Positions 36,125 through 64,000 of a stretch of 64,000 nucleotides of DNA are shown here, piece by piece; position 1 is the first letter of the stretch, and every line of letters begins with the position of its first letter. The translations under genes and the position numbers were made by a program. The DNA is from Paenibacillus daejeonensis DSM 15491 (lineage in GTDB: Bacteria > Bacillota > Bacilli > Paenibacillales > Paenibacillaceae): the NCBI RefSeq assembly GCF_000378385.1, contig NZ_KB899662.1, forward strand, positions 287,129-351,128. Reading direction: 5' to 3'. The notes beneath the pieces are model-generated. The model was not told where the DNA came from. It worked only from the letters and a program-made list of their open reading frames with translations, and ran no database searches.

Positions 36125-36152
36125 ATGGCTCTTTCTCTCCTTTTCGTGCCTA

Positions 36153-40528: not shown

Positions 40529-40554
40529 ATTTCCTCAGATACGAACATCTCAAG

Positions 40555-40728: not shown

Positions 40729-40821
40729 CCGCGACGCACCAACCAACTGCCATCTTTTGCAGTTATTTCGCACTGACCCGGCCATGCGACGCTATCCTAA
40801 CTTCCTCCGGCAACGTTAAAC

Positions 40822-43800: not shown

Positions 43801-46800
43801 CGGCGATGCAATCAGAGCTTGCAAGCCTTGTTGCAGATGCTCGGCCAGTCCCTGCATGGTGTCGTGGAAGAACAAGTCGGTGTTGTAGGTCAACGCCGCC
43901 TGTATTCCGTCCTCTGTCGGAACGAATTCCAGATGCAGGTCGAACAGGCTCGTGACCCCGCGGTCTTCCATGTCCTTCAACGTCAGGCCCTGCAGCGGGC
44001 TGCTGCCAGTCAGGAGCATGTCGGTGTTTTGCAGCACCAGCATCACGTTGAACAGCGGCGAACGGCTCATGTCGCGCTTGATGGCCAACTCCTCGACTAA
44101 CCGGTCGAATGGATACAACTGATGCTGGTACGCGCCCAGCGTTGTCGTCCGCGCTGACTCCAGCAGATTGGCGAGAGTGGCATCCGGCTCAACCTGTGTC
44201 CGCAGCACGATCGTGTTCGCATAAAAACCAAGCTGATCCTCCAGCTCCACCTGACTGCGGCCAGCGATAGGCGAACCGATTAGCAGATCCGATTGACCGC
44301 TGTATTTGTAGAGCACCAGATTGGTCGCAGCCAGCAGCGCCATATACAACGTTACGCCGTGGGTACGGCAGCTTGCTTGCAGCTTGGCCGTGCTCTGCGC
44401 GTTCAGCGCAAAACGGATACGTTCTCCAGCATAGGTCTGCATCGGCGGCCGTGGCTTGTCCAGCGGGAGCTCCAGTGTCGGCAAGCTGCCGCCCAGCGTC
44501 TCGCGCCAATAGGCGCCCATGCCGTCGTAGCTGCCATCCGCTATGGATCGGGCCTGCCACTGCGCATAATCTTTATACTGAATACGCAGTGGAGACAATG
44601 GATATTCCTGTCCTTCCACCTGGGCATTGTACAGTACCGCCAGCTCGCGCAGCAGCACCTGGGAAGACCAGCCATCGCTAATGATATGGTGCATATTGAT
44701 GTACAGCACATGCCGCTGCGGAGCAACAACGAATAGTACCGCCTTAACCAGTGGACCACTTGCCAGATCAAACGGCAGCATCCGGTCCTGCTCCATCCAT
44801 GCTTCCGCTTGTGCCAGACCCTCTTCCACTTGTAGATCACGGCGCTCCAAAGCAATGCCGAGTGACTCACGGTCACGAATGATTTGTACCGGCTCCCCTT
44901 GGTCATCGCCAAATACGGTCCGCAGCACCTCATGACGATCTACCACCGCCTCGAATGCCGACGCCAGTGCAGCCTCGTCCAGCTGGCCCTCCAGCACCAT
45001 CGAAAAGGGCGAGTTATAGGCAACGAGACTCTCCGGGAACTGGCTGAGCATCCACATCCGTTTCTGCGCGGCGGATACCGGGTAACTCGCCTGCTGACCT
45101 GCAACCGGAATCAGATCCGGCTGTCCGCCTACGGCCTGCCCTGACAAGCCAGACCCCGTAGCGTTACCTGCCTGCTCCAGCAGTCCTGGATTTGTCACCG
45201 TATCGCTCGACTGCGTTTGACCTGCGGCAACAGCAGCTTGGGCTTGCGCCGTTTCCGGCACCGATAAGCCAGCTCCGCCAGGCGCTTGCTCCAGCTTAGC
45301 AGCCATGTATCTGCTCAGCTCGGATGGGGTGGGGTGGCGGAATATTTCTTCAAAGTTCAGCTCTACCCCAAACACGCCGCGCACCCGCAGCAGCACCTGA
45401 TTAGCCATCAGAGAGTGACCACCCAGCTCAAAAAAGCTGTCATTCGGACCAATATCCGGCTGCTTGAGCACATCACGGAAAATCGCTGCCACTTTGTCCT
45501 CGGGTCCAATCAGACTATCCACATAAGCGGAGAAACCGCTGAGCGTCGGATAATCGAACAAGTCCTCGAAATCCAGTTTGACGGCTAGCTCCTCGCGGAT
45601 TCGTCGGATGACGCGGGTAGCCAGCAGCGAGTCGCCGCCCAGCTCGAAGAAATGATCGTCCCGGCCGAGTGCATCCAGCTCCAGCGCCTCGCTCCAGAAG
45701 ACGGCCATGCGGCGCTCCAGCTCGGTGGCCGCAGGGTCCTTCAGTACACCTGCCGCCTCAGCTTGCTTCTCAACACCCGTCTCGTCCATCAGATCAGCCA
45801 TCGACAGCTGCGGCGTCTCACGGACCCAGCAGCGGATTGGCTCGAACGGATAACCCGGCAGTTCCGCCCGCTGAGCCGGACGACCCGCAACCACTGCCTG
45901 CCAATCTGGCGTGTGACCCTGTACGTACAACGCACACAACAGCTCTGCAATTGGATCTCCGACAGTCTCTGACGCGAGCAGTCCGCACATGCGGAAGCGA
46001 TTGTCCTCCACTCTTGATCCCAGTGCGGTGCCAAGCTCGCCGCCAGGCGCCAGCTCGACGAAGAGCACATCCCCCTCTGCAGTCTCGGACGCGATCAGCT
46101 TGTCTACGCGGCCCTCCAGTCCGTCCAGTGGCACAGGCTCGTACGTCTCGGCAGCCTTCATAACCTCTGCCAGTGGGCGTCGCTCGGCGATGACATCCGC
46201 AGCCAGTCTGCCAATGCCGACCGGCAACAGCTGAGCTACAGGCATCCGCCATTCTGACAGAAGACGGTACATCGCGATGAGGTGAGCCAAGGCGCGTACG
46301 CCATCTCGGCCTGAATCGGCAAGCTGCAAGGCTTGCGTGTACGCCTCCCGGTACACTGGATGACGTGTTTGCAGCGCCTGGATGACAGCCTCCGGCAGTG
46401 GTGTATGGTCCGTTACCAGCAGAATAGCCTTGCCTTGCTTCGATCGGCTATCCGCGAGCGACAGCATCCAACCTGCGCCTGACGCATGGCCATTATGCAG
46501 GGGTGCTGCACTGCCAGTCTTAACAGCCTCCAATCTCTGGCCGTTAGGCGCGGCGCTTCCTGAGTATCCCTCAGGCTGAACCACAGCCTTGGCTGCATCT
46601 CCGCCCAACGACTGCAGCGCTGTCCGCAGCTGCTCACGCAGCTCAGCCGCGCTGCTCGCCGAAGCGGCGAAGCGGCAGCGATAATGCTTGCGCCCTCGTG
46701 CCAAGGTCCAGCTGACGGAAGTCAAGTCAACATCATTCACCGTCTGCAGACGATCGGCTAATGCCTTCATCCGGCGCTTCAGAGCATCCGGCGTCCTGGC

Positions 46801-48319: not shown

Positions 48320-50005
48320 TTATTTTTTGTGTTCTCGCTCGTACAGCAAGCCATCCGACCACACATAGTTGGTGCCCTCCCAAGCCGTTGCCGAGGCGAC
48401 ATCCGGGAAGAAGCCTTTGCCGTTATAATTGGCACTCGTGTTGCAGAGCACAGGGACGCCGCTATGCCGCTTGTAAGCCGTCAGCAGCTCGGCTAACTGT
48501 GGGTTGTCTGCCGGATGCACGGTCTGCAGACGCGCGGTCCCATCGAGATGGATGACCGCTGGAATTCGGTTCACCCAGTCCGGCTTGACCCGGTGATCGA
48601 ACAGCATATATGGATCGCGAATGCCCGGTTCGAACAGCTCCGCCGCATCGGCCTCCAGACAGATCGGGGAGACGGGCCGGTAAGGCTCGCGGTGCTTGAT
48701 CTCATTCAATACATCCTTCATCGCAGGCGACACGGCCGGTGCGATAATGCTGCGGTTGCCGAGCGCCCGCGGTCCCAGCTCGGCTCTGCCGTGCAGGACT
48801 ACGACGGGCTCGCCCTTCTCATGCAGCAGCTGAGCCAGCTCCTCTGTGCTGCAGCTTCGCTGGGTCCAGCCAGCTGCCGGCTCCGATGGCACGACTGCTG
48901 GGCCGCTGTACACCTGCCAGTCCAGTCCTAGCCCGCCGCCGCGCGCCAGCAGGGCACAGCAGGCGGCGCCGATCGCGCTGCCCGAGTCGTTGGGGAACGG
49001 CGGCACGTACACCTCGGAGACGATACCTGCCTCACGGATCAAGGAATTCCATTTGATGTTGAGCGCACAGCCGCCTGCCAGGGCGAGGTTAGCGGATTTG
49101 CCGCCGTGGCGGCGGATTTTTTTGGCCAGCTTGTCCAGCAGCATCTGACCCAGGTAATCATGGAAGGTCCGCAGGACGTCCGCATCTTCATACGATTGCC
49201 CCGCCATCCGCTCCTTGAACAGCCGCGCCAGCTTGTTGCCGAAGCCCATCGGATGATCATACGCGTCCAGATAGATCTCGTCCCAGATGTCATACCACTG
49301 CGGCTGTGACTTCCCGAGCGCAATGTACGCCATCACCTTGCCCGCGACTGACAGACTGTCCTTGGCAAAACCGCCGCTAACCTGGAATGGGCCGAAATGC
49401 TGGGCGAACAGGCTGTACATGTTGCCGATCAGCAGGAAAATCGGGCCCAGGTTCTCGAATCCTCGCTGCTGCGCATCGTAGTAATACAAGCGCGGATACA
49501 TGCCACCGTCCCATACGAGAACGTACGCACTCTCGCCACGGCTGGCAAACGGACTGCTGCAGTACGCACCTGCCACGTGAGCCGCCGCATGATAGTAGCT
49601 TACATAGGGAAGGGAGCGGCCGCCGATTCGCAGCCCTTCGAAGGACCATTCCTTCAGCAGCGGGTCCTGCGGACCCTGCTCCTCATACTGACCCACGGCC
49701 AATTGGTAGGCCTCGCCTCCGTCAGCCGCGTCCAGCCAGTTGTGGCCCTCGCCGATCGTCAGCCGCGGCTGAATCGCCAGGGCATCCTCATCGTCGCCAC
49801 CCCAACCGTCCACTGCAAAATAATCAATATCTTCAATGCGGTAGCCTTCTGCTGCGAGAATCTCCTCAATAAGGGCTGTATCCTCAATCTGTGCGTACCG
49901 GCCTTTGTTACGGAGCTTCTCCACCTCAATGCTGAAGACCAGGCGCCCATTATCAACCAGAGCTACGGCTCCATCGTGCGTCAGCTTCAATCCGCAAATG
50001 ATCAT
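48320..50005 (-). CDS. NodU/CmcH/TobZ-family carbamoyltransferase
   Basis: Transfers a carbamoyl group from carbamoyl phosphate, through carbamoyl-adenylate, to an OH or NH2 acceptor. The 561-residue protein has the N-terminal Kae1-like part with a His pair in YYHAAAHVAGAY, YVLVWDGGMYPRLYY and LALAGGCALNIKWN, and the family-defining RAELGPRALGNRSI in the C-terminal part. Next to diaminopropionate genes, a likely acceptor is the side-chain amine of that residue, giving beta-ureidoalanine as proposed for zwittermicin and as in the viomycin group. Carbamoylation of a hydroxyl in the final product is the alternative. The ATG follows AAAGGAGG by eight bases and lies 20 bases after the C-A-T NRPS stop. 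Confidence 0.93.
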   Translation of the reverse strand: MIICGLKLTHDGAVALVDNGRLVFSIEVEKLRNKGRYAQIEDTALIEEILAAEGYRIEDIDYFAVDGWGGDDEDALAIQPRLTIGEGHNWLDAADGGEAYQLAVGQYEEQGPQDPLLKEWSFEGLRIGGRSLPYVSYYHAAAHVAGAYCSSPFASRGESAYVLVWDGGMYPRLYYYDAQQRGFENLGPIFLLIGNMYSLFAQHFGPFQVSGGFAKDSLSVAGKVMAYIALGKSQPQWYDIWDEIYLDAYDHPMGFGNKLARLFKERMAGQSYEDADVLRTFHDYLGQMLLDKLAKKIRRHGGKSANLALAGGCALNIKWNSLIREAGIVSEVYVPPFPNDSGSAIGAACCALLARGGGLGLDWQVYSGPAVVPSEPAAGWTQRSCSTEELAQLLHEKGEPVVVLHGRAELGPRALGNRSIIAPAVSPAMKDVLNEIKHREPYRPVSPICLEADAAELFEPGIRDPYMLFDHRVKPDWVNRIPAVIHLDGTARLQTVHPADNPQLAELLTAYKRHSGVPVLCNTSANYNGKGFFPDVASATAWEGTNYVWSDGLLYEREHKK

Positions 50006-50025: not shown

Positions 50026-53000
50026 TTAAAACTCGATCTCGCGTAGCGTCTCTGCTGGCGTTTCCTGCTCCTGGTCGGCTTGGGACAGCTTGGCTGCGAG
50101 CGCCGAAACCGAGCGGTAATCAAACAAATCCTGTACGGTCGCTCGCCCCGGATACGCCTTCCCCAGCAGGGAATAGATGCGAATCAAGCGGTGCGAGTCG
50201 CCGCCGATGGCGAAGAAATCATCGGTTACGCCAAAATCCTCCCGGCCCAGCACATCCGACCAGATCTGCCATACCCGCTGCTCGATTTCGCTTCCTGGCT
50301 GTACCCTATCTTCGGCAGGGGTGCGGCTGTCCATGGCTGCCATGGCCTGACGGCGCAGCTCCCGGCGGTCAAGCTTGCCTGTCCGCGTGAGGGGCAGCTC
50401 GGGCACCTGCCACAGATGAGATGGTATCATGTAAGCCGGCAGTGTGGTGCGCAATCGTTGGCGCAGCTCTTCCAAGCGATTGTCGGCTTGCGAGCCTGCG
50501 GCACTCTGCGTAACCTCGCGGTTCGAGTGATCCGTCTGCCCCGCCTCTTCACGCAGGGATACGAAGCCGTGCAGCTCTGTCCGTCCGGCATGGCGTACCG
50601 CTACGACGGCAGCCGCCTCCACTGCCACGTCCGCAGCGAGCGCGGCCTCGGTTTCCCCGGGCTCGACGCGATAGCCACGGATCTTCACCTGCTCGTCCCG
50701 GCGCCCGGCAAACCGTAGTCTGCCCTCCCGGTCTCGGCGTACCAAGTCCCCACTGCGGTACATCCGAATGCCCGGTCGATAAGGGTCCTCACCGAATCTC
50801 TCGGCGGTCCGCTCCGCATCACCGATGTAGCCCCGAGCGACGCCTGGACCTGCAAGGTAGAGCTCACCTGTCGCTCCAGCGGGTACGGGCTCGCCGTCCA
50901 ATCCCAGTACGTAAGCCCGCATCCCTGCGACCGGTTCACCGAGATGAACTGGAGAATCGTCGCACGCGGCAGACAAGGCATCCACGGTCGTTTCGGTCGG
51001 ACCGTAGTTGTTGTATACCGCGTAGCCTTCGGCCAACAGGCCGTCCTTCACTGCTGGCGGCATGGGCTCACCGCCACATATGACGGTCCGCAGTTGCGGC
51101 GCGGGCGGCTCATCTTCACCCAGCAGCAGCTCGCCCAGAATGGAGGGAACGTAATTGACCAAGGTGATGGCTTCATCCACCAGACGTTTCCGGAACGCGG
51201 CTTTGTCCAGGACGAGTCCAGGCTCCGCGATCACGACCTTTCCCCCATGCAAGAGTGTGCCGAACCAATCCTCAACACTCGGGTCAAAGGTATAATCTGT
51301 TAGTTGAAGCACCGCCGTGCTGTCACCCAACGCGTAACGGCCCGCGAACCAAGTTGCTATGTTAATGACGCTGCCGTGCTCCACCATGACGCCTTTGGGC
51401 TTGCCGGTTGAGCCGGACGTGTACATGACGTAAGCCAAGCGGCCTGTTGACGAGGGCCCGCTGTCCGTATCGATATCCATAGCCGAAGCAGCCACTTGCT
51501 CCCGAGGCAATTGGTTCTCAGCTGTAAATCCCGCATGCTGAACTTCAGCATCGCTGGACCCCAGTCCGCGAGAATCTTGCACTAGTGCCTCGACATCCAG
51601 GACCTGTACACCAGGAGGGACACTAAGCTCAGCGGCCGCTGCCTGGTCCGCCAGCACGATACGCACCCTGCACTCCCCGAGCATATGACTGATTCGCTCC
51701 GGCGCTTCCTCCGGGTGGATCGGCAGATATGCGCCTCCCGCCCGCAGAATACCCAGCATCGCAGCCGGAATAAATTGGGACGGTCGCATCTGCAGCGCCA
51801 CGATCTCCTCTGCGGCCAGTCTGCCTGAGCGAAGGGCATGCGCAATATGATCGGCCTGACGGTCGAGCGCTTCGTAGGTCCATTCGCCGTCAGCGCTTTT
51901 TACAGCGATGGCTTGTGGCGTCCGGCGCACCTGTTCGGCAAAGCGTCCATCTATCGTCCCGGTCGTGTCGGCGGGCTGGACCTCTTCCCCAAGCAGGCCC
52001 GAGCGCTCCTCTGACGACACCATTGCAAGCTCAGCGATAGGTGCCTCTGGCTGAGCTGTCAAAGACAGCAACAACTGACGATAATGCGCCAGAATGCGTG
52101 TTACACTCCGTTTGTCGTAGCGTTCAGACGGACTGCCAAGTGTCAGCTCCAGACGCTCACCGGTCATCACGCCCAGCGTGAGAGCGTAATGCGTCGCTTC
52201 CTCCAACTCATAGCCGCTGACGGAGAGTGAGCCATCCGCTGCACGCATAGCACCCGGTTCGACCGGATAGTTCTCCACGACGACGATGGAGTCGAACAAG
52301 CTCTCGCCTGGTTCGGGACCCGCCTTTTGAATCCGGGATAGTGGCATCGACTCGTAAGCTGCGCGCGCACGCAGATCGGCTGCTACCTGCTGCAGCAATT
52401 CCCCGACCGTGCTGTCCTCCGTTGTCCTGACGCGCAGCGGAACCGTATTGATAAATAAGCCAATCATTGACTCTATCCCAGGCAATGCAGATGAACGTCC
52501 GGATACCGTCGTACCGAACACCGCATCCCGTGTGAGGCCATAGCGCTGCAACAGCAGGCCCCACCCGGCAAACAACAGCGCAGCCAGTGTCACCCGCTGC
52601 TCTCTTGCCGCTGCACCCAACCGGTCCGTTTCCTCGCGACTGAGCTCCAGCACTGCCGCCACAGGCTCTGCAGCCGGGATGGCCTCCTCGCCTCCATACG
52701 GCAGACGAGTGGTTTCTTCCAGATCCTCCAGGTATGTATGCCAGTAGGTGTCTCCTGCCTCTGCATCTTGCTGCTGAAGCTTCTGCACGTAGGCTTTGAA
52801 CGGTGCCGGATCGGCTTGCAGTTCTTGCCCCTTATTTCCGTAGGCAGCGAAGAAGCGCGAGAGCAACAGTCCCGTGCTCCAGCCATCGTACAAAATATGA
52901 TGATTGCAAATCAGCATGGCATGCTGCTGCTCTGACAGCTTGCACAGCAGAATACGGTAAGGCGGCTCCGACAGATCAAACCCGCGTTCTTGCTCCTCCG

Positions 53001-53367
53001 CACGAAGCTCCGCCAACCGGGATTCAGGATCTGCTGCATCACTGTAATCATGACTGCTGATCTTGGGCTCATGACGCTTCAGTACAATCTGCACGGGCTG
53101 TGAGAGTCCTTCGTAGCGGAACACCGTCCGCAGCATGTCCGAGGAAGCTGCTACCTGATTCCAAGCATCCTGGAAGCGTTCAAGGTCCAGCATGCCTTCC
53201 AGCCGAACGACAAATTGAACGTGATAAAGGGCTTGCCCCGGTTCCTTCAGCTCATGCAGCAGAATGCCTTCCTGCATCGGCGTTAATGCCAGCATGTCCT
53301 GGACTGCGGCCTTATCGATCGACTTGGGTTTTAGGGCACCAGCCTTCTGGTTTTGTGTATGATTCAT
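50026..53367 (-). CDS. Single-module NRPS (C-A-T)
   Basis: A 1113-residue synthetase with one module. The C domain starts at LTPMQEGILLHELKEPG and has HHILYDGWS near residue 156. The A domain has YTSGSTGKPKG near 652, NNYGPTETTVD and YRSGDLVRR; its code reads DPENIGNVDK, which I cannot match to a common residue. The carrier motif is GGDSHRL near 1056. No epimerase or TE is present. Being placed between the type II thioesterase and the carbamoyltransferase, and after the sbnA/sbnB pair, it is the best candidate to load diaminopropionate or its carbamoyl derivative. Its ATG overlaps the thioesterase stop by four bases, so the two are coupled. Confidence 0.94.
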   Translation of the reverse strand: MNHTQNQKAGALKPKSIDKAAVQDMLALTPMQEGILLHELKEPGQALYHVQFVVRLEGMLDLERFQDAWNQVAASSDMLRTVFRYEGLSQPVQIVLKRHEPKISSHDYSDAADPESRLAELRAEEQERGFDLSEPPYRILLCKLSEQQHAMLICNHHILYDGWSTGLLLSRFFAAYGNKGQELQADPAPFKAYVQKLQQQDAEAGDTYWHTYLEDLEETTRLPYGGEEAIPAAEPVAAVLELSREETDRLGAAAREQRVTLAALLFAGWGLLLQRYGLTRDAVFGTTVSGRSSALPGIESMIGLFINTVPLRVRTTEDSTVGELLQQVAADLRARAAYESMPLSRIQKAGPEPGESLFDSIVVVENYPVEPGAMRAADGSLSVSGYELEEATHYALTLGVMTGERLELTLGSPSERYDKRSVTRILAHYRQLLLSLTAQPEAPIAELAMVSSEERSGLLGEEVQPADTTGTIDGRFAEQVRRTPQAIAVKSADGEWTYEALDRQADHIAHALRSGRLAAEEIVALQMRPSQFIPAAMLGILRAGGAYLPIHPEEAPERISHMLGECRVRIVLADQAAAAELSVPPGVQVLDVEALVQDSRGLGSSDAEVQHAGFTAENQLPREQVAASAMDIDTDSGPSSTGRLAYVMYTSGSTGKPKGVMVEHGSVINIATWFAGRYALGDSTAVLQLTDYTFDPSVEDWFGTLLHGGKVVIAEPGLVLDKAAFRKRLVDEAITLVNYVPSILGELLLGEDEPPAPQLRTVICGGEPMPPAVKDGLLAEGYAVYNNYGPTETTVDALSAACDDSPVHLGEPVAGMRAYVLGLDGEPVPAGATGELYLAGPGVARGYIGDAERTAERFGEDPYRPGIRMYRSGDLVRRDREGRLRFAGRRDEQVKIRGYRVEPGETEAALAADVAVEAAAVVAVRHAGRTELHGFVSLREEAGQTDHSNREVTQSAAGSQADNRLEELRQRLRTTLPAYMIPSHLWQVPELPLTRTGKLDRRELRRQAMAAMDSRTPAEDRVQPGSEIEQRVWQIWSDVLGREDFGVTDDFFAIGGDSHRLIRIYSLLGKAYPGRATVQDLFDYRSVSALAAKLSQADQEQETPAETLREIEF

Positions 53368-54098
53368 CTGTTGTGGACTCCTCTCCTTGAATCGCCAGTC
53401 AGCGTTTCCCGCATAAGACCCAGGACATGCTCTGCATCCTCATGGATAAAAAAATGTCCACCTTCACAAATGTTCACGCGACAGGGGCCGCTGGTATAAG
53501 ATGCCCACTCCTCCATCGGTTCCGAGGGGCCCTCCAGTCTGCCCGTCAACACAGTCACAGGCATGGTCAGCTTGTCCATTTGCAATGCAGGCTTGTAGTT
53601 TTCCAGCAGCGTATAGTCTGCCCTGATAATCGGCAGGAACAATTCGCGCACATGCGGATCATCCAGCAGACCTGCCGGTGTTCCACCCTTTTGCTCCAGC
53701 TCCCTCTGCCATTCGTCATCGCTCATCTCCATCGCCCGCCGTTCCCGCTTGAAGGGAAGATGTGGCGGCAGCGCTCCGGACAGGATCAGATGCTCCGCTT
53801 CGGGCTGACCCATTGCCCGCAGTCTGAGGGCCGTTTCATAAGCGACCTTCGCCCCCATGCTGTGACCGAACAATACGTAACGTGTCGTGGACGCTTTTTG
53901 GAGTTCCGTCTTGATGATTCGGGCTGCGTCGGTTGCAGCCTCTTGCATATCGGCATAAAACGGCTCACCCATCCGGCTGCCCCTGCCTGCCAACTCGAGG
54001 GGGAGGACCTCAGCCTGAGCCAGCAGCGGGGCGCGCCATTTTTGATAAATCGAAGCCGATGCTCCGGCATACGGGAGACAAAACAGCAGCGTCTTCAT
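53364..54098 (-). CDS. Type II thioesterase
   Basis: A free-standing alpha/beta hydrolase that removes wrong or stalled groups from carrier domains. The protein begins MKTLLFCLPYAGASASIY, has the nucleophile elbow FGHSMGAKVAYE near residue 90 and the late His in CEGGHFFIHED. An in-frame ATG at 54104 touches the AAAGGAGG site; the ATG at 54098, seven bases away, is the better start (244 residues). It begins 13 bases after the sbnB-like stop and overlaps the next NRPS start, so it is firmly within the operon. Confidence 0.94.
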   Translation of the reverse strand: MKTLLFCLPYAGASASIYQKWRAPLLAQAEVLPLELAGRGSRMGEPFYADMQEAATDAARIIKTELQKASTTRYVLFGHSMGAKVAYETALRLRAMGQPEAEHLILSGALPPHLPFKRERRAMEMSDDEWQRELEQKGGTPAGLLDDPHVRELFLPIIRADYTLLENYKPALQMDKLTMPVTVLTGRLEGPSEPMEEWASYTSGPCRVNICEGGHFFIHEDAEHVLGLMRETLTGDSRRGVHNR

Positions 54099-54111
54099 GA
54101 CCATCCCTCCT

Positions 54112-55080
54112 TTAGTCTGGCAGTGTTAGGCCGACATCCTGCGTTTCTGCCAGCCGGTAATAATACGCCGCCATCGCGATATCGAACACCGCCATGCCCA
54201 TCGGGTTGAACATAACAGCCTCCGTGCTTGGCAAAGCCTGCATGGCTTCCGTGGTCAGGTCAGAGATCGGCAGCGTCTCCGATTCCTGCAGACCGCGCTC
54301 CAGATGCATCCGCTCAATATCCGTTCCTTCCCGGCACACTTCCTCCCAGTCATCTACCAGAATGGAGCTCGTATGGTCCAGAATATCGGGTGTAAAATCA
54401 CGCAGCGAGACATTCAGCAGCAGGCTACCCGCCTTGGGCGCAAGATCAATATAGCCCTCGCTGCTGACCGTGCAGGTGACGAACAGATCCGCATCCTTGT
54501 AGGCCTCCTGCCAGCTGGCTGCCACGGTCACTTGGTCCCGCAACGCCTCAGGTACATCTTCAAGCGAAATGCCCCGCAGATCATAGAGGACAATCGAGCT
54601 AATCCGGTCACCGAGCAGTTCGCCAATCATGCGCAAGTGCAGCCGGCCGATCGGGCCGTACCCGACCATGCCTACCTTCCACGAGTCCGGCAGACCGTCA
54701 CGCGACAAGTAGCGGCGCAGCACGGATGCGCTGACACCCGCCGTCCGGATGCCGCTGATGCGGGCCGCATTGAATACCGCCAGCGGACGTCCGGTTGCCG
54801 CCTCATTGAGAATGGTCATCGAATGCGCCCGCTGCAAGCCTTGCTCCAGGTTGCCGGGGAAGCTGGCCACCCACTTGATGCCTGCCGTATCCACCTCTCC
54901 GCCGACATAGGCAGGCATGGCGATGATCCGGTTTCTTGAATCCCCATAGCGCAAGTAAGGCTTGATGGGCTGGGCAAACTCTTTTGCTGCAAGAAGCTGA
55001 GCGGCTTCGTCGATCACATCCGCTGCCGCATGCCAATCGACGCCCAAACTGTCAATCATCTCGTCATTAAAATATCGCAT
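54112..55080 (-). CDS. sbnB: SbnB-like N-((2S)-2-amino-2-carboxyethyl)-L-glutamate dehydrogenase
   Basis: A 322-residue member of the ornithine cyclodeaminase / mu-crystallin fold. With SbnA it makes L-2,3-diaminopropionate: SbnB oxidises the SbnA product with NAD, releasing diaminopropionate and 2-oxoglutarate. The NAD-binding segment is VGMVGYGPIGRLHLRM near residue 140. Other family stretches are GIKWVASFPGNLEQGLQRA, AARISGIRTAGVSA and FNPMGMAVFDIAMA. Start ATG at 55080 is behind CAGGAGG. It follows the sbnA-like gene by about 156 bases and precedes the thioesterase by 13. Confidence 0.93.
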   Translation of the reverse strand: MRYFNDEMIDSLGVDWHAAADVIDEAAQLLAAKEFAQPIKPYLRYGDSRNRIIAMPAYVGGEVDTAGIKWVASFPGNLEQGLQRAHSMTILNEAATGRPLAVFNAARISGIRTAGVSASVLRRYLSRDGLPDSWKVGMVGYGPIGRLHLRMIGELLGDRISSIVLYDLRGISLEDVPEALRDQVTVAASWQEAYKDADLFVTCTVSSEGYIDLAPKAGSLLLNVSLRDFTPDILDHTSSILVDDWEEVCREGTDIERMHLERGLQESETLPISDLTTEAMQALPSTEAVMFNPMGMAVFDIAMAAYYYRLAETQDVGLTLPD

Positions 55081-55236: not shown

Positions 55237-56250
55237 CTAATGCCCGGGTCGGCGACCGCCCGCTGCCTCGCGTACGGATGGCCACGGTGCTTCGGGAGCG
55301 CCGCTGCTGGTCAGCTGCGCAGTCCACTCGGGATTGTACAGCGTGTCCATATAGGCCATGCCACCGTCCGCGCAGATGAAGGCTACCACAGGCTTGGCTC
55401 CACCACTGGCCCAGTTCTCGAAATACCGCGACAATGCGGCATACACGGTTCCCGAGGAGCCGCCAACAAACAGCGCATGCTCACGCATCAGTCGGTTGCA
55501 GCCTGCCACCGTTGCGGCTTCGGGGACGAGGATGATGTCATCGATCTGCGCCTCCCGCAGATTGGGCGGAACGATGCTGGAGCCGATTCCGGGGATCAGT
55601 CGCTTGCGCGGCGTATCCCCGAAGATGGCCGAGCCTTCCGTATCGACAGCAATGATCCGTGCTGCAGGATGGCTCTCCTTGATCCGGCGCGACACGCCTG
55701 CCAGCGTACCGCAGGAGCTGGTGCCGATGAAGACATAGTCAATGCGTGGCAGAGCTTCCGCCAGTTCTTTGCCTACGCCTTCATAGTGACTGCGCACACT
55801 ATCCGGATTGTCATATTGATTGGTCCAGAACGCGCCTTCAATCTCGGCTTTGAGTTGCTCAATCCGCTTCAGCCGTGACAACAGATAACCGTTGGTCTGG
55901 TCACGGACGGTGACTTTTTCTACTCTTGGCGAGAGGGAGCGCAGCAGCTTTTCGTACAATGGGTTGATGTTCGGATCAATAACGGGAATGAACCGGATGC
56001 CAAGTCGGCGACACAAGGACGCCAGTGCAATGGCAAAATTGCCCGATGATGATTCAATGACCGTCGTTTCCTCCGTAATTTCTCCCCGGGCAATGGCAGC
56101 CTCCAATATGGTGTAGGCCGGACGAATCTTCACGCTGCCGGTATAGTTATGACTCTCCAGCTTGGCGAACAGCTGTATCTTATTGTGTTTGAGCTCCACC
56201 AGCGGGGTATTGCCGATCGCTTCGCGCCATGATTGGAGTCGTTCCAGCAT
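55237..56250 (-). CDS. sbnA: SbnA-like PLP synthase for diaminopropionate (2-amino-2-carboxyethyl-glutamate synthase)
   Basis: A PLP enzyme of the cysteine synthase fold. SbnA joins O-phospho-L-serine with L-glutamate to give the precursor that SbnB splits. The PLP Lys lies in GSVKIRPAY, followed by ESSSGNFAIALA and the phosphate-binding GTSSCGTLAG. The longest frame begins at 56274, but AAGGAAGGG is spaced for the ATG at 56250 (protein MLERLQSW..., 337 residues). The C-terminal 30 residues are Pro/Ala/Gly-rich and look unconserved. It lies 41 bases after the peptidase-exporter gene. Together with the sbnB-like gene it marks diaminopropionate as a building block. Confidence 0.93.
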   Translation of the reverse strand: MLERLQSWREAIGNTPLVELKHNKIQLFAKLESHNYTGSVKIRPAYTILEAAIARGEITEETTVIESSSGNFAIALASLCRRLGIRFIPVIDPNINPLYEKLLRSLSPRVEKVTVRDQTNGYLLSRLKRIEQLKAEIEGAFWTNQYDNPDSVRSHYEGVGKELAEALPRIDYVFIGTSSCGTLAGVSRRIKESHPAARIIAVDTEGSAIFGDTPRKRLIPGIGSSIVPPNLREAQIDDIILVPEAATVAGCNRLMREHALFVGGSSGTVYAALSRYFENWASGGAKPVVAFICADGGMAYMDTLYNPEWTAQLTSSGAPEAPWPSVREAAGGRRPGH

Positions 56251-56291
56251 ATGCATCCCTTCCTTCCGGTTCATGGCATGGTTTGGACGCC

Positions 56292-59200
56292 TTATCGCGC
56301 CTGCCGCACCAGTTTCCCTGTATCCATCTTCAATACGTGATCTGCAGTATCAAAATAAGCATCGTCATGCGTGATCGCAATGACGCATGTACCTCGCGCC
56401 TTCATCTCCGGCAGCAGCTTCTCATAAAACATCCTGCGGTACGACGGATCCTGGTCCGCCGCCCATTCGTCGAACAGGCAAATCGGCCGGTCCTCCAGGT
56501 AGGCGAGCAGCAGCGCAAGGCGTTTTTTCTGTCCCGTGGAGAGGCTGGTCGTGCTGAAGGTTCCGTCTTTCACTTCGACCTTGCCATCTAGCTCCAACAA
56601 GCGGAGATAGGCAGCAATCTCGTCCTCACGCCCTGACGTACGGATGCCATACAAGGCGTCGAATAGGTGGAAATCTGCAAAAATAGCGGTAAACTGCTCC
56701 CGCAGCGCTTCGCCGTCAACAGGTTGCCCATTCATCAGAATCTCGCCTTCGTCGGGACGGTACAAGCCTGTGATCAGCTTGGCCAGACTGGACTTGCCGC
56801 TGCCATTGCCTCCGGTAATGAAGGTCACTTCCCCGCTGCGGAACGTATAATCCACCGGACCTACTGCGAACCGACTGCGGCCATCCGCATTCTCCGGATA
56901 ACGGTACACGATGCGGCGAAGCTCCAATGCCAGTTCAGGCAAATGATTGAGCTTGTGGGACTGCCCCGTTCCAGCCTCCAAACCAGCCTCCCTGGAAACC
57001 GCCACCTCCTGCCGCCCATCAACGTCCGGTATGGGGGCTGTCCCGGCCGCCGCATAGGCCAGCCGGCGTTCGTCGACCTCGCGAATCAGCTTCTTGACGC
57101 GACCCCAGCTGACGCGAATCAGAGCGATCTGCGGCAGGGAGTCCAGCAGCTGATTGACTGGCCCGGTCATGTACAGGAAGACAAAGACGTAGCTGCGCAG
57201 CATATCGCTATCCATCTGTTTGAAGATGGCCGGGAACAGAAACACTACACATCCGATGACGAGTACGAACAGCGTCTCACCAATGATAAACACGTGGACG
57301 AAGCGCATCTGCGCCCCGGTCCGCTTGTCCCGGAAGGTCTCGCAGCTCTCATCCATCGCACTGCGGAAGCCCGCCCGTCTGGCGCGGCTCAGGGACAACT
57401 CCTTGAAGCCCCGCAACAGATCGGCGATGTAGCCGAAGAAGCGGTTTTGGATATCCCGCGTCTCTTCAAACAGCTCGTTCGCTTTTTCCCCAACCAGATA
57501 GTAGATGCCCGCAAGCACGGCGATAATGACCAGAGATAGCAGCAGTGCATAGACATTCATAATTCCGAGGTAAGCGAAGCAGCAGAGCAGAGTCACCACA
57601 TTCGTGCCGCCTGTCACAATCAGCCCGATCGAGCTGCTGATCTCCTCCGTATCGCTGCTCAGCGTCGCCTCGACGCGCCCGCGCTCCATGCGCTCCATAT
57701 GGGCATAGTCGGTATCCAGCAGCTTGCCAGCCAGCTCCATCCGTTTTTCATAAACGAACTGGTTAGTCAGCCGTACCAGCATGGATTGGATATAGCGCTG
57801 GCCCACAACGTACATCAGCACCGCCAGTCCGAAATAGGCGATCAGTCCGCTGGTCAGATTGTCACTCCGGACAAAGGATTCATTAATGACAAAGATGATC
57901 ATTGCATTGCCGAAGCCGCTCATGACCGCCAGGACCACCGGCTGCAGAAGCGATCGATCCTGCGCTCTGGGGAACCAGGCGATCAGCAGCGAATAGAGCA
58001 AATAAAGAACGATTACGCCTGCAATCAGCCATACCGCCATCATTACCGTATCCGGCAGCCAGACCTCGACGAAGTGCCAGCTCAGGCCAAGTCCGATGAC
58101 TTGAGGCAAATAGTATAGCGCCGCTGCAGCGATAGCGGCTGCCACCAAACGTCCGGCCAAGGCCGTCAGCCACTTCCACGGCCTTGGCTGGGGCCGCCGC
58201 ACACCGCGCAGCACATCCCGCAGCGCCAAGCCCAGGTAGGCCAGAATCAGCAGAGCCGCCGGAGTCAGGATGACCAGCAGCGCTACGGCAAATGTATCCG
58301 CACGCTTGAACAGGTCCTGCTTGGGTACAGGTGGTTCGTTGCCCAGCCACAACTGAAGTACACTTTCTCCGATCAAAGCCGTCGTATCGCTATTGCGATT
58401 CGCCAGTATCGCTACGCCGCTGCCCTCCCCGGGTCGAAAAGCGACAAACGAGGAAAACGCGGGATTGCTGCCCGTATGGGCATATTCGCCCTCGCCGTCC
58501 TGGTACACTTCCCAGCCCGCTGCATACGAGGATCCCGAAGCCGAAGGTGCGACCGTGCGATCAGGCTCAAGGGTAGCGTCCAGCCAGGCCGGGTCAAAGC
58601 CATCAGGCAGCTCTGCTCCGAGCAGCAGCTCCAGCCAACGCGCCACATCATCCGGCGTGCTCAGGATGTAGCCGGATGGGGCATTGCCCTCGTAGAGCGG
58701 CGGGTCATATGCGGCCGGTTCGGTAAAACGGCCTTTGTAGCCCTGGCTAAGATCCTCCGGGTCGGCACCCGAGATTCCGACCACGGTCTCTTCAAGGCCC
58801 AGCGGCTCCAGTACGGATGCGGCCATGTAGTCGGCGAAGGACTCACCTGTCACGGTCTCAATGACCAGACCCAGCACCGCATAATTGATCGTCGCGTATT
58901 CATAGCGAGAGCCTGGCTCAGCTGTCAGTGGCTGACCGAGCAGCGACCGCACCGTGATTTCGGCTGCCGCTTCGCCTTCCGTTGGCGGAATCTCGCCAAT
59001 CGAGGAGAACGGGATGCCGCTCGTATGATACAGCAGCTGCCCCAGCGTAATGGTTTGCGGCTCTCCCTCATAGCTGAGCGCAAGCCAAGGAATATAGTCG
59101 GTGACGGGGTCATCCAGTGATAATCGGCCTTCGGCTTGCAGGCGCATCATAGCGAGGCCAGTCAGCGCTTTGCTGTTGGAGCCGAGCTCATAGAGCGTGT

Positions 59201-59456
59201 CTCCGTCCGTCGGCCGCGAGGTCTCTAGCTCCGCATAGCCAAAGCTGCGGTTATAGACGGTCTCGCCATCTTGAACGATGACAACCGATAGGCCCGGAAT
59301 TTCTGCACTCCGCATCCGGTCCTGGACCAATGCCTCAATGTCAGCTAACCGTTCCTCAGCAGAGAGCACGGCTTGCGCCGACACCGGCGAGAGGACTGCG
59401 AGCCAGCAGAGCCAGCCGACCAGCATCAGTAGAGGAAGCCGGTACCGTTTACTCAT
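56292..59456 (-). CDS. Serine peptidase (ClbP/XcnG-like) fused to cyclic-peptide-type ABC exporter
   Basis: A 1054-residue fusion. A signal peptide (LPLLMLVGWLCWLAVLSPVSAQA) leads into a beta-lactamase-like S12 hydrolase outside the membrane, with SNSK near residue 92 holding the catalytic Ser and Lys, a Tyr in YEYATINYAVLG and HTGSNP. Three membrane spans follow, as in ClbP-type peptidases, then a six-span exporter domain and an ATPase with GGNGSGKSS, LSTGQKKRLALL, ICLFDEW and an ITHDD switch His. The exporter resembles the PvdE/SyrD cyclic-peptide family. ZmaM-like D-asparaginyl peptidases share this plan. The NRPS just upstream makes D-Asn, so it probably removes an acyl-D-Asn cap during export. 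The ATG at 59456 overlaps the NRPS stop; GGAGGGG is seven bases before it. Confidence 0.9.
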   Translation of the reverse strand: MSKRYRLPLLMLVGWLCWLAVLSPVSAQAVLSAEERLADIEALVQDRMRSAEIPGLSVVIVQDGETVYNRSFGYAELETSRPTDGDTLYELGSNSKALTGLAMMRLQAEGRLSLDDPVTDYIPWLALSYEGEPQTITLGQLLYHTSGIPFSSIGEIPPTEGEAAAEITVRSLLGQPLTAEPGSRYEYATINYAVLGLVIETVTGESFADYMAASVLEPLGLEETVVGISGADPEDLSQGYKGRFTEPAAYDPPLYEGNAPSGYILSTPDDVARWLELLLGAELPDGFDPAWLDATLEPDRTVAPSASGSSYAAGWEVYQDGEGEYAHTGSNPAFSSFVAFRPGEGSGVAILANRNSDTTALIGESVLQLWLGNEPPVPKQDLFKRADTFAVALLVILTPAALLILAYLGLALRDVLRGVRRPQPRPWKWLTALAGRLVAAAIAAAALYYLPQVIGLGLSWHFVEVWLPDTVMMAVWLIAGVIVLYLLYSLLIAWFPRAQDRSLLQPVVLAVMSGFGNAMIIFVINESFVRSDNLTSGLIAYFGLAVLMYVVGQRYIQSMLVRLTNQFVYEKRMELAGKLLDTDYAHMERMERGRVEATLSSDTEEISSSIGLIVTGGTNVVTLLCCFAYLGIMNVYALLLSLVIIAVLAGIYYLVGEKANELFEETRDIQNRFFGYIADLLRGFKELSLSRARRAGFRSAMDESCETFRDKRTGAQMRFVHVFIIGETLFVLVIGCVVFLFPAIFKQMDSDMLRSYVFVFLYMTGPVNQLLDSLPQIALIRVSWGRVKKLIREVDERRLAYAAAGTAPIPDVDGRQEVAVSREAGLEAGTGQSHKLNHLPELALELRRIVYRYPENADGRSRFAVGPVDYTFRSGEVTFITGGNGSGKSSLAKLITGLYRPDEGEILMNGQPVDGEALREQFTAIFADFHLFDALYGIRTSGREDEIAAYLRLLELDGKVEVKDGTFSTTSLSTGQKKRLALLLAYLEDRPICLFDEWAADQDPSYRRMFYEKLLPEMKARGTCVIAITHDDAYFDTADHVLKMDTGKLVRQAR

Positions 59457-62400
59457 GAAACAGCCCCTCCAGTTCATCCTGACTGAGTTCTACCGTCTCA
59501 AAATCTGTCTTGGTAAACCGGCCTTCCTTCGCACGTGTACAATGCTCCAACACCTGATGGAGCTGTTCGCGCCAGTTGGCGGCCAGAGCACTTGCGTCTG
59601 CCGAAACGCCCTGATCAACCCGCACTTTCAAGTACAAGCGTCCAGATACCGTCCATGCAAGCGCCTCGATGTCACAAGCCGCGCCATTGCCCGGATGGCT
59701 GTCTGGGCCGGTAGCTTCATCCGCCAGTTCCAGCAGCTTACCAGCCCCTCCCGTTGATAGCTCGCCCAGATAGTTAAACATCACGCCTGGCTCTGGCTGA
59801 CGCGCAAAGGCTTCATTGTCTCGCAGATACCGGGCAATCCCGTAATCGATCCCCTGCCTTGGTACGCTCCGTATACGTTCTTTGACATGAACAATTGCCT
59901 GTTCCATCTGATGCTGCTGATTCACGTCCAGCTCTACATTCGCTAAGCTTAGTCCCTGCAATTCGCTGCACAGCAGCGGCAGTGGGTAGAGTGTCGTGAA
60001 CCAGCCGACCGTACGGGTCAGATCCTGTGCCCCCGGGAGCGGCTCTCGTCCATGTCGTTCCATCTGGATGACGAGCGTCTTTCCTGTTAGCCCATTACTC
60101 TTATTTAAAAGGGCACCAGCCAGCGCAGCCAGCAGCAGCTCTGTCGGTTCCGTGCGGTATGGCCGATTGGCTTCGCCTAGCCATAACGCCGTTTCCGGCG
60201 TTTCCAGCCATGCCTCGCCATCCACTGGCCCCATCGCCACCTCGATGTCTCTTGGCGTCATCTGCAGTGCTGGGCCTCCATTCGATTCCTTCTTAGCAAC
60301 ACGCCTACTAGCTGGTTCTCCACTGGCAGTCTGGACGCTTTGCCACTCCTCCCAATAGCTGATATCCCGGGGGCCGAGTGCAGCCGCTCTTGTCTCTAGC
60401 GCCCCGCTCCAATCCGCGTAGGAATCCGATTTTGCAGGAAGCTCAGGCCGGCTTCCCTGCCGCATGGCTTCCAGCAGCTGCTCCAGATCAGACGTCAGAA
60501 TAAGCCAGGATACGGCGTCCACAACCAGATGATGCGCAGTCAGCAGGAGGCGCCGCCCCCGCTCGCCCAGCTCCAGCCAGCAAGCTGCGAACAACAATCC
60601 CTGATCCAAGTCGAAGCTGCGTTTGCATCTGATCGCAGCCTCCCTGATGGCTACGTCCAGCTCTCCACCAGATACAGCCGACAGATCGTGGCGGCTCATG
60701 ATGAATCTGCGTTGTAGATGCTCCGGATTGTACCGCAGCCCGACAATTGTACCTTCGTCTGACCGATCCACATTGAGCCGCAATGCATCATGATGGCGAA
60801 CAAGACGCGTCAGCGCTTCCTCCGCCATTACCGGCGTCACCTGCGTGTCCAGCCGGAGCAGCACCGATTGATTCCAATACTGCGGTATCGGGAACTCGCG
60901 CTGGACAAACCATGCCCCAATTGGCGGCAAGCCCAGCCTGCCTTCTACCGGTAGGCTGTCACCCGGAGCTGAACTAGCCGCTGTCATACGCTCAGCCATC
61001 GCGGCAAACGAAGCCGCCTCCAGAACGTCTGAGGGCTGCAGCAGCCACCCCGCCTCCTGCAGCCGCGAAGACAGCTGAATTGCCTTGATCGAATCCCCGC
61101 CCTCACGATAGAAATCATCTTGCTCGCCCAGGCTATCGTTGCGCAGCAACGCACGGGCAAGCGTCAGTAGCGTCTCCAGCCCACTTGAGCCAGTTGCTTC
61201 TGTGCTACGATGGCCGGGATAAAGCGTCCCCTGCGCATGCTTACCAAGCGTCACTTCACGCTCGACCAAGGTGCGACGGTCGACCTTGCCACTCGGTGTG
61301 AGCGGCAGCGCCTCCAGCCGAATGATTCGGGCAGGCACCATATAGGCTGGAAGCTGTTCCCCAAGCTGCTGTCGCAGCACGTCTTCCTGCATTCCGGCTA
61401 CCCCAGTTACAAACGCCAGTAACGTGGGAGAGCCTCCCGCTAGTCCGACAGACACAACTGCCGCTTCCTTCACTCCGGGCTGCCGCTGTAGCTGACGTTC
61501 AATCTCACCCGGCTCGATCCGGTAGCCGCTCAGCTTGATCTGGTCATCGATGCGCCCGAGGTACCGGTACACACCGTTGTGATCCAGCAGCGCCAGATCA
61601 CCGGTCCGGTACATCCGCGAGTTCGGATAACCAGGTTCAGGCACGAAGCGCTCCGCTGTCAGTTCCGCTCGTCCGCGATACCCGCGCGCCACGCCCGTGC
61701 CTGCGACGCAGAGTTCGCCGGGACTTCCAATCGCCGGCTGTTTACCATCCACATCGATTAGATAGAGACGGGCATGTGCCGCCGCTTCGCCAATCGGTAC
61801 ATCCACCTCCTGATCGCTGCGACTGTCGAACAGATGAATCATACAGCCAACGGTCGCTTCAGTCGGTCCGTATTCATTGTAGACCCGCGGTCCGCCCAGC
61901 GCCTCTGAGGCCGACTTGGCCAGCGAAGCGTGGAGTGCCTCACCGCCAACAATCAAGGTATGCACAGGTGTGCGTACTGGAGGTGCTTCACTCAGCAGCG
62001 CCAAGTGAGCGGGCGTCAGCTTGATGACGGTCGCGCGCGCCTCCGCTAGAATCGCTGGGAGGACAGAAGCCGTGTCGGATGGCTGCCGGTAAATCGCAAT
62101 TCCTGCCCCGGCAACCAGTGGAGCGAACATCGAGGTTACGGTCAAATCAAAAGCAGGCGAAGAGTACAGGGCGAATATATCCGACTCGTCGCGCAGATAA
62201 CGTTCTGTCGCCCATGTCGCATAGGCATGCAAGCTGCCATGCTCGACCATGACCCCCTTCGGTTTGCCCGTTGAACCCGAGGTGTATATGAGGTAAGCCA
62301 GATCTTCCGGCTGTGCAAGGACCTTGAAATGAGCCGTATTGGTTGCCCTAGACGGAGAGCACCACTCATCCACTCTCAATACAGAAGCTGAAATTGTACG

Positions 62401-64000
62401 CATTGCCTCTTCAGGAAGCTCACGATCAGCCACTATCACAACACATTCACTGTCCGACAGTACATCAGCAATTCGACCCGCCGGATGACGAACATCCATC
62501 GGCACATAGGCTGCACCCAGCCACAAGACTGCCCAAGTGGCAATCACCGATTCTAGCCGGTGCTCACTATACAAGGCAACCCTGTCTCCCCGGCTTACCC
62601 CATGGGCTACCAGCCAGTCAGCCATGGCCTGAATTTGCTGCAACAGTTGGCTGTAGGTCAGCATACGCTCTCCATCACGCAGAGCGATGCGGGAGGGGGC
62701 CTGCTCGGCACTGGCGATCAATGACTCAATAACGGTCCGGTGAGCGGGGGACTGTGACGATTCATCGATACGCTTGTCTGCTTCCTCCATTAGCACATGC
62801 AAGGGGGCGTTCGGCTGCTCCAGCACTTGCTCCAGCAACGCAACCAGTTGAAGTCCAAATGATGCAATCTGTTTGCGGGTAAAGAGAGACAGCTTGTAAT
62901 CCAGATCCAGCCGGATTTGCCCCTCGCCCCAGTTCTTGACGATCAGCTCCAGCGGGTATAATTGCTCGCCCTTATATAACTCTTCACTGAGTAATGGACT
63001 GTCCCCCAGCTGTTCATGCGGATTGAAGATATACGTGTTCAAACAGACCTGAAACAACCCCTCGCCTTCTGGCAGTCGGTCCCGCAGCTGCCGAACAAGC
63101 AGATCGTAGGGATATTTCTGATGCAAATACCCCCGCTTGAACTGCCGGCGTAACTGCTTGAGCTGCTGCATCGCCGACGCTTCGAGGCTCACGTTGCAAC
63201 GCATGGGCATCGTACTGACATACATGCCGATCGCGGCCTTCTCTTCCCGTGTCGAACGGTTGTATACGGGGACACCCAAGGTCAGCTCGTCCACCTCGTA
63301 TGTGCTGTGCATTCCAAGTTGCAACACCAGTCCGAACAACTCATGCAGCGAAGTGCCCGCTTCCTGTGTCCACTTCAGCGTACGCACCGCCAGCTCGGCT
63401 GGCAGCTCCATCGACCAGCGGCCGCCCTTGCGCCAATCTGGAGAATCGCGGAACGGCAGCGACGGCACCTCCTGGAACTGCTCCAGCCAATAGTTGCGGT
63501 CTCGCTCCATACGTGGGGATGCGAGATATGCCTGTTCTTTGTCCAGCAATTCGATATAGGTCATGTCTGTCATCTCAGGCAAGCCGCCGGCTTCCGCTTC
63601 AGAATCTGCTAGCTCGGCATAACAGCTGCTCAATGCCTGGGTGAACAGCTGCGTCGACCAGCCGTCGAAGATCAGGTGATGGATTTTGACCAATAGTCCC
63701 GTCTCGCCCCTGCCCGTCCGAAAGATCGCAAATTGAAACAGCTCACTTGATAGAAGCTCGAAGGGCTGCCGGATCGCTTGGTCCAGCCAATCCTGCAGCG
63801 CCTGCTCCGGGTAACGGCTGTGACGGCAATCAAACGTTGGGATATGAGGGGGTACGGGAGGATGGATGGTTTGGAAGACTTCGCCATCCTTCATTGTGAG
63901 TCGGATTCGCAAGGAGGCATGGCGCCGCAGGACAAGCTCTACGGCTCTACTCAGTCTCTCCTCGTCAACAGGACCAGGCATCCGTGCAGTGCCACAAATG
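59449..64000 (-). CDS. NRPS initiation-like module: C, A(Asn), T, E (5' end beyond the window)
   Basis: The frame is open to the right edge, so the N-terminus is missing by perhaps 40 residues; the first visible residues, ICGTARMPGPVDEERL, fit an early condensation domain. C has HHLIFDGWS (about 63665-63690). A has YTSGSTGKPKG (about 62260-62300), NEYGPTEATVG and YRTGDLALL. Its code reads DLTKIGEVGK, one conservative change from the known Asn code DLTKLGEVGK. T has EGGDSIKA (about 61100) and E has HHLVVDAVSWLIL (about 60530), TVGWFTTLYP and FNYLGEL. It would deliver D-Asn. The N-terminal C domain would be a starter type that adds an acyl chain, as in ClbN or XcnA, if nothing lies upstream. 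The stop overlaps the peptidase-exporter start by eight bases. Confidence 0.93.
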   Translation of the reverse strand, partial: ICGTARMPGPVDEERLSRAVELVLRRHASLRIRLTMKDGEVFQTIHPPVPPHIPTFDCRHSRYPEQALQDWLDQAIRQPFELLSSELFQFAIFRTGRGETGLLVKIHHLIFDGWSTQLFTQALSSCYAELADSEAEAGGLPEMTDMTYIELLDKEQAYLASPRMERDRNYWLEQFQEVPSLPFRDSPDWRKGGRWSMELPAELAVRTLKWTQEAGTSLHELFGLVLQLGMHSTYEVDELTLGVPVYNRSTREEKAAIGMYVSTMPMRCNVSLEASAMQQLKQLRRQFKRGYLHQKYPYDLLVRQLRDRLPEGEGLFQVCLNTYIFNPHEQLGDSPLLSEELYKGEQLYPLELIVKNWGEGQIRLDLDYKLSLFTRKQIASFGLQLVALLEQVLEQPNAPLHVLMEEADKRIDESSQSPAHRTVIESLIASAEQAPSRIALRDGERMLTYSQLLQQIQAMADWLVAHGVSRGDRVALYSEHRLESVIATWAVLWLGAAYVPMDVRHPAGRIADVLSDSECVVIVADRELPEEAMRTISASVLRVDEWCSPSRATNTAHFKVLAQPEDLAYLIYTSGSTGKPKGVMVEHGSLHAYATWATERYLRDESDIFALYSSPAFDLTVTSMFAPLVAGAGIAIYRQPSDTASVLPAILAEARATVIKLTPAHLALLSEAPPVRTPVHTLIVGGEALHASLAKSASEALGGPRVYNEYGPTEATVGCMIHLFDSRSDQEVDVPIGEAAAHARLYLIDVDGKQPAIGSPGELCVAGTGVARGYRGRAELTAERFVPEPGYPNSRMYRTGDLALLDHNGVYRYLGRIDDQIKLSGYRIEPGEIERQLQRQPGVKEAAVVSVGLAGGSPTLLAFVTGVAGMQEDVLRQQLGEQLPAYMVPARIIRLEALPLTPSGKVDRRTLVEREVTLGKHAQGTLYPGHRSTEATGSSGLETLLTLARALLRNDSLGEQDDFYREGGDSIKAIQLSSRLQEAGWLLQPSDVLEAASFAAMAERMTAASSAPGDSLPVEGRLGLPPIGAWFVQREFPIPQYWNQSVLLRLDTQVTPVMAEEALTRLVRHHDALRLNVDRSDEGTIVGLRYNPEHLQRRFIMSRHDLSAVSGGELDVAIREAAIRCKRSFDLDQGLLFAACWLELGERGRRLLLTAHHLVVDAVSWLILTSDLEQLLEAMRQGSRPELPAKSDSYADWSGALETRAAALGPRDISYWEEWQSVQTASGEPASRRVAKKESNGGPALQMTPRDIEVAMGPVDGEAWLETPETALWLGEANRPYRTEPTELLLAALAGALLNKSNGLTGKTLVIQMERHGREPLPGAQDLTRTVGWFTTLYPLPLLCSELQGLSLANVELDVNQQHQMEQAIVHVKERIRSVPRQGIDYGIARYLRDNEAFARQPEPGVMFNYLGELSTGGAGKLLELADEATGPDSHPGNGAACDIEALAWTVSGRLYLKVRVDQGVSADASALAANWREQLHQVLEHCTRAKEGRFTKTDFETVELSQDELEGLFHE

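Follow-up and report, generated by a model that had tools for sequence, protein, structure and literature searches.

Peptidase-ABC fusion proteins of approximately 1,100 amino acids are encoded in the zwittermicin (ZmaM), edeine (EdeA) and paenilamicin (PamJ) clusters (PMC9889268). The fusion protein encoded in the locus described here resembles all three in domain order, length and active-site signature, as well as in its C-A(Asn)-T-E partner gene, while the assembly line of the cluster differs from theirs. The zwittermicin cluster shows a further likeness in gene content, as it combines the ZmaM fusion with 2,3-diaminopropionate (Dap) genes and a carbamoyltransferase, and it carries genes for aminomalonyl and hydroxymalonyl extender units. 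The colibactin peptidase ClbP of Escherichia coli consists of a peptidase and a three-helix domain, sharing its catalytic and D-Asn-binding residues with the fusion, and lacks a fused ABC part.

Contig C23 of a Brevibacillus formosus genome (G209) is presumed to hold the edeine cluster, on the basis of the species, its SbnA/SbnB genes and its A-domain codes. The locus L068 was dropped as the edeine locus, as the genome in question has its SbnA/SbnB genes and the edeine-like assembly line on a different contig. The fusion of the presumed edeine cluster shares 45% amino acid identity with the fusion studied here, and the two clusters have in common the C-A-T-E gene with an Asn code, SbnA/SbnB, KS proteins and a DIWExTxDD-like pocket. 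They differ in gene order and in the Gly and other codes of the presumed edeine cluster, where no NodU-type enzyme was found in the 60 kb read. In an edeine-producing strain of B. formosus, masses consistent with N-lauroyl- and N-myristoyl-D-Asn are described in the available text of PMC9889270.

Organization of the cluster

The window, a stretch of 64,000 nucleotides of Paenibacillus daejeonensis DSM 15491, lies on contig C4 of a genome of 7.46 Mb. The cluster spans 19.6 to 64.1 kb on the minus strand, from NRPS1 to the phosphopantetheinyl transferase gene at 19595, and its features are, in reading order:

59449..64000 within the window, minus strand: NRPS1, C(putative starter)-A(Asn code DLTKIGEVG)-T-E, first gene of the cluster (Pfam and local HMM scan)
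59509..60939, minus strand: epimerization domain of NRPS1, motif HHLVVDA, preceded by a T domain with GGDS
56292..59456, minus strand: ClbP/ZmaM-type peptidase-ABC fusion, 1054 aa (1061 aa from the ATG at 59477)
58386..59336, minus strand: S12 peptidase domain of the fusion, with S100, K103 and Y194 catalytic and T196, N265, N338 and E97 as D-Asn pocket (ClbP alignment)
57981..58310, minus strand: three-helix membrane domain of the fusion, with W467, W473, P458, P475 and D394; D388 lies just before it
56292..57938, minus strand: ABC exporter half of the fusion, membrane and ATPase domain (TIGR01194, cyclic peptide exporter)
55237..56274, minus strand: SbnA-type Dap synthase (TIGR03945; 400 bits, cut-off 349.95)
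54112..55080, minus strand: SbnB-type partner dehydrogenase (TIGR03944; 318.9 bits, just below the cut-off of 326.9)
53364..54104, minus strand: type II thioesterase
50026..53367, minus strand: NRPS2, C-A(DPENIGNVD)-T
48320..50005, minus strand: NodU/Carbam_trans-type carbamoyltransferase
40822..48126, minus strand: hybrid PKS-NRPS (the KS protein), KS-(no AT found)-ACP-ACP-C-(A-domain remnant)-T-C
36153..40250, minus strand: NRPS, (C-terminal half of a C domain)-A(DIWQSTADD)-T-E
20483..36217, minus strand: NRPS of 5244 aa, four C-A-T modules (DVWATGNIV; DLTKIGEVG; DAQDLGTVD; DAQDLGAVD), then C-T-TE without an A domain
19595..20266, minus strand: phosphopantetheinyl transferase, last gene assigned to the cluster

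No transporter besides the fused ABC half occurs among the proteins assigned to the cluster, to the left of which lie two regulator genes and then a periplasmic binding protein gene at 16187-17242. When the sequence was read past the right window edge, the start ATG of NRPS1 was found 98 bases outside, at the window-equivalent position 64098 (L009:6227). Upstream of it, approximately 1.3 kb contain only short, partly repetitive frames, beyond which genes for a metallo-beta-lactamase-fold protein, an rRNA methylase, a TrkA protein and an amidohydrolase are located. The preliminary description of this DNA had allowed for upstream genes that feed other residues into this module; no such module was found in the sequence read past the edge, where the genes are unrelated, and the NRPS genes of the cluster begin with NRPS1.

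Directly before NRPS1, L009:6228-6520 (minus strand) represents a dispersed repeat with 48 full or partial matches in the P. daejeonensis genome and 78 in Paenibacillus sp. 598K, which folds as RNA at -104.9 kcal/mol (a value without shuffle control). The gene downstream of its 20 long copies has the same orientation in nine cases and the opposite orientation in eleven. A leader RNA before NRPS1 was ruled out, given the absence of an Rfam match and of an orientation preference of the repeat.

We consider it highly probable, from the encoded domains and residues, that the cluster makes an inactive precursor capped with N-acyl-D-Asn, which is exported and uncapped by the fusion. The starter C domain of NRPS1 would join a fatty acyl group to Asn and its E domain would turn this residue into the D form, while the acyl-D-Asn cap would be extended by NRPS2, the KS protein and the NRPSs after it. 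Dap would be supplied by SbnA and SbnB, and a carbamoyl group would be added to its presumed target by the NodU-type enzyme. The capped product would be exported by the fusion, probably acting as a dimer because it contains only half an ABC transporter, and the peptidase, at the outer face of the membrane, would cut after acyl-D-Asn to yield a mature compound with a free amino terminus, which may be toxic. Export and activation of an acyl-D-Asn-peptide by a single polypeptide had been proposed in the preliminary description, and the sequence supports this proposal, with the D configuration, acyl chain, export and cleavage as its predicted elements. A fuller picture, which we hold to be possible and rather doubtful, is that of a so far undescribed peptide that contains Dap, a carbamoyl group and one polyketide insertion, where trans-loaded carriers would make up for the lost A domain and the A-less last module. 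Self-protection would here be provided by the fusion alone, each exporter half handing its cargo to its own peptidase, with no active drug inside the cell.

The presence of a ClbP/ZmaM-type peptidase marks a cluster whose product requires a cap, probably for the safety of the producer, and hence points to a compound worth isolating; the interest of the present cluster lies in product discovery. Among the titles listed in a literature search, none names this cluster, which is what is new here, the mechanism and the fusion type having already been described. Boronic acid inhibitors act on ClbP and ZmaM (PMC9889270, available text) and could be used to trap the capped precursor without genetics.

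The assembly line and its counterpart in Paenibacillus sp. 598K

The pocket DPENIGNVD of NRPS2 may, as a guess, accommodate a basic residue, and the four listed C domains nearest to that of NRPS2 derive from loci that contain an Asn C-A-T-E gene, in each case from the gene directly after the fusion. By analogy with the similar code in the presumed edeine cluster, DIWQSTADD is likewise guessed to belong to the Dap-using module. The pocket DLTKIGEVG recurs in the 5244-aa NRPS, where it is again, as far as the residues indicate, an Asn code, and the codes DAQDLGTVD and DAQDLGAVD of the same protein are near the Glu/Gln code DAQDLGVVDK (PMC12283262). SbnA exceeds its cut-off in 25 of 40 fusion-bearing genomes and in none of 14 controls, a genome-wide count in which SbnA is not tied to the fusion clusters.

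Matches to the KS protein (e-value 1e-100 or better) place the cluster in two of seven genomes of the genus, namely those of P. daejeonensis and Paenibacillus sp. 598K. The latter harbors the NodU-type gene, the KS protein gene and the next NRPS gene in the same order. This next NRPS is represented at a contig end by several matching pieces that do not all share one frame, and the 598K copy may thus be broken or misassembled.

Such features raise the question of whether the cluster is decaying and yields no product, which we judge to be unlikely. It contains one A-domain remnant, one halved C domain and an A-less last module, and the operon is split by a repeat-laden gap. This gap, 571 bp between two NRPS genes (40251-40821), holds 3.4 copies of a 51-bp tandem repeat and pieces of 48 and 25 bp of the dispersed repeat, and is absent from 598K, where 21 bp separate the genes. 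The A remnant lacks the core A motif and shares 52-54% amino acid identity with its 598K counterpart; elsewhere in this protein, the KS, ACP, C and T domains reach 77-93% and the linkers 30-32%. However, the 598K orthologue contains the same remnant and the same half C domain, and both are therefore old; a remnant that has been kept at this level of identity looks like a tolerated spacer, with the T domain loaded otherwise. Furthermore, the large ORFs of the window are uninterrupted in the ORF list, and, leaving aside the two remnants, the KS, C, T, E and TE domains give near full-length matches to profiles which were built from the window itself and with which Pfam agrees.

The predicted cap-forming module NRPS1

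The domain order C-A-T-E is assigned to NRPS1 by Pfam and the HMM scan, and alignment gives the A-domain pocket as DLTKIGEVG, an Asn code, confirming the NRPS with an Asn-like pocket and an E domain that had been noticed at first. The pocket positions were placed by GrsA numbering, and the tenth residue (K) is assumed. The NRPS1 ORF ends at 59449 and the peptidase-ABC ORF extends from 59477 to 56292, with two possible in-frame ATGs for the fusion: that at 59456, preceded by ggaggggctgtttc as a plausible ribosome site, reproduces exactly the eight-base overlap reported earlier, while that at 59477 gives an overlap of 29 bases.

The choice between a starter and an LCL assignment for the first C domain of NRPS1 was addressed with a C-domain tree, in which its ten nearest neighbours are all (10/10) first C domains of Asn C-A-T-E genes. 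It falls in a starter clade (support 0.885) of 50 C domains, of which 45 come first in Asn C-A-T-E genes, one is the presumed edeine starter and four are others, although the clade was defined as joining the 45 (NRPS1 included) and membership is hence partly by definition. The presumed edeine starter is the only candidate characterised starter reference in the tree. The four others, two from Ser-coded C-A-T-E genes together with those of L119 and L091, are drawn from 69 further first C domains, while none of the 46 C domains that follow a T domain and none of the six that follow an E domain within proteins enter the clade. Its place in this clade and its position as first domain of the first gene support the identification of the NRPS1 C domain as a predicted acyl starter.

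The wider occurrence of such modules was assessed in the best 80 of at least 488 homologous fusion loci. A C-A-T-E gene is present in 48 of these 80, and in 45 of the 65 with nearly full flanks, all 65 of which contain NRPS/PKS domains; where it is missing, the gene may lie farther away or be absent. In the same set, and counting readable codes, 46 of 48 single-module C-A-T-E genes carry the Asn code, versus three of 109 other A domains.

It is very unlikely that the cap is acyl-D-beta-cyanoalanine, acyl-D-Asp or another residue in place of acyl-D-Asn. According to the available text of PMC12283262, a cyanoalanine residue would agree with this pocket code, and two relatives carry a Ser code at this place, whereas the pocket code is identical to that of the presumed edeine cluster and the fusion retains both E92 and N331, which are tied to the specificity of ClbP for D-Asn over D-Asp (PMC9889268).

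The Ser code of these relatives, DVWHFSLID, is found in a C-A-T-E gene with a starter-clade C domain beside the fusion in Paenibacillus cellulosilyticus and an uncultured relative (L057:5433-9956 and L062:5444-9952), for which an acyl-D-Ser cap is possible. At three loci a stand-alone S12 protein without the signature described below is encoded directly before the fusion (L086:9998-11089, L092:9947-11050 and L120:9953-11059); the Asn C-A-T-E gene that precedes it has the same orientation in L120 and the reverse orientation in L086 and L092. In a Chitinophaga locus (L101), the Asn C-A-T-E gene is located directly before the fusion.

The peptidase-ABC fusion and its relatives

The translated fusion begins with a signal peptide, followed by a Beta-lactamase/S12 domain (residues 48-364; SxxK at 100-103), hydrophobic spans near residues 397-415, 436-462 and 481-499, and the ABC_membrane and ABC_tran domains. 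The domain scan and hydropathy agree on the S12 peptidase and three membrane spans seen in the preliminary description, but not on its full ABC exporter, as one membrane and one ATPase domain make the ABC part a half-transporter by its sequence. This part matches the cyclic peptide exporter family TIGR01194 (e-value: 7.6e-110; Bitscore: 368.1; cut-off: 286.2) and contains the Walker A, LSTGQ, FDE and ITHD motifs of the ATPase. Four of the usual six spans exceed the hydropathy threshold, and the predicted model shows six long helices. With three spans between it and the outside domain, the ABC part would be correctly oriented in the membrane, as the anatomy of the protein suggests. Among plasmid records, none covers 80% of the fusion, and the 15 listed of 81 match the ABC half only.

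Full-length ClbP is the nearest solved relative of the fusion (e-value: 7.7e-64), with an alignment that runs through the three membrane helices and 33% amino acid identity in the peptidase domain. A fold search with the AlphaFold model (mean pLDDT 79.4; pTM 0.61) ranks four full-length ClbP structures first (TM by target 0.83-0.89). Positions for D-Asn recognition and at the membrane interface have been named for ClbP (PMC9889268), and 15 of the 17 compared have the expected residue in the fusion, the exceptions being K235 and Q330, replaced by L and S, respectively; position 330 is variable among fusions. The catalytic residues S95, K98 and Y186 correspond to S100, K103 and Y194, in keeping with an S12 fold. 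The D-Asn pocket is represented by E97 for E92, T196 for S188, N265 for H257 and N338 for N331. The remaining matches are K240 to K248, F243 to F251, D381 to D388, D387 to D394, P451 to P458 and P468 to P475, with W467 and W473 in the three-helix domain equivalent to W460 and W466.

A relaxed signature (E/Q92, S95, K98, Y186, S/T188, N331 and an aromatic residue at 466, in ClbP numbering) is present in 79 of the best 80 of at least 488 fusion homologs, the exception being L091 with T at 331, and a strict version in 70 of these 80. The relaxed signature is absent from the seven S12 paralogs of the P. daejeonensis genome and from nine other S12 proteins near fusions.

The comparison with ClbP by alignment and tree, suggested at the outset, was carried out with ClbP as the only characterised reference and with the tree rooted on one of the paralogs. 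In addition to sharing the D-Asn pocket residues, the fusion falls into one group with ClbP, the 80 other fusions and 16 stand-alone peptidases that bear the signature (98 tips; support 0.77), and not with the other S12 proteins of its genome, all seven paralogs being outside; a grouping with penicillin-binding or esterase families lacking D-Asn specificity would have spoken against the original reading. A 101-tip group that excludes all paralogs has a support of 0.948, with several weak inner nodes (0.25-0.56). The near group of the fusion (13 tips including itself; support 0.96) consists of four fusions and eight stand-alone proteins, such that the fused and unfused forms are not cleanly separated on the tree.

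Least probable of all is that an enzyme of the cell-wall or beta-lactam type (penicillin-binding protein, esterase or FmtA-like), fused by chance to a peptide exporter, makes up the S12 domain and has no role in maturation, a reading rejected on the basis of tree and signature: an FmtA-like protein is the next solved relative and follows ClbP closely on the domain alone (181.9 versus 192.8 bits), yet the pocket and membrane-interface residues match the prodrug peptidases, with T at position 188 where the wider family has N (PMC9889268), the paralogs lack the signature set, and the fusion shares an operon with an Asn C-A-T-E gene, such a gene being near 46 of the best 80 of at least 488 loci.

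The signature was rejected as sufficient proof alone, as 16 of 20 stand-alone S12-membrane proteins, chosen from the same bacterial family, also carry it (L130-L139, L141-L145 and L149; neighbourhoods L150-L165). For 13 of these 16, no NRPS domain was found within the up to 20 kb inspected (one at a contig end), suggesting that the signature points to D-Asn recognition and not by itself to a prodrug cluster. According to the available text of PMC9889268, the authors of the ClbP study set aside network clusters lacking NRPS genes.

Among the matches listed, the closest named homolog of the fusion is that of Paenibacillus sp. 598K (78% amino acid identity), followed by one at 51%. When four candidates per genome were scored, at least 31 of 197 genomes of the family, P. 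daejeonensis included, matched at least 760 residues of the fusion, in at least 37 genes, one with an internal stop. The best 80 of at least 488 loci include Bacteroidota, Pseudoalteromonas, a SAR324 bacterium, Aminicenantes and a Delongbacteria bin. The available text of PMC9889268 names Firmicutes, Proteobacteria and Actinobacteria, and since Bacteroidota and some further phyla not named there also encode the fusion, more genomes are available to mine. Four Bacteroidota fusions (L097, L098, L112 and L118) have Q at ClbP position 92, and their caps may differ, since the E92Q exchange admits D-Asp into ClbP (PMC9889268).
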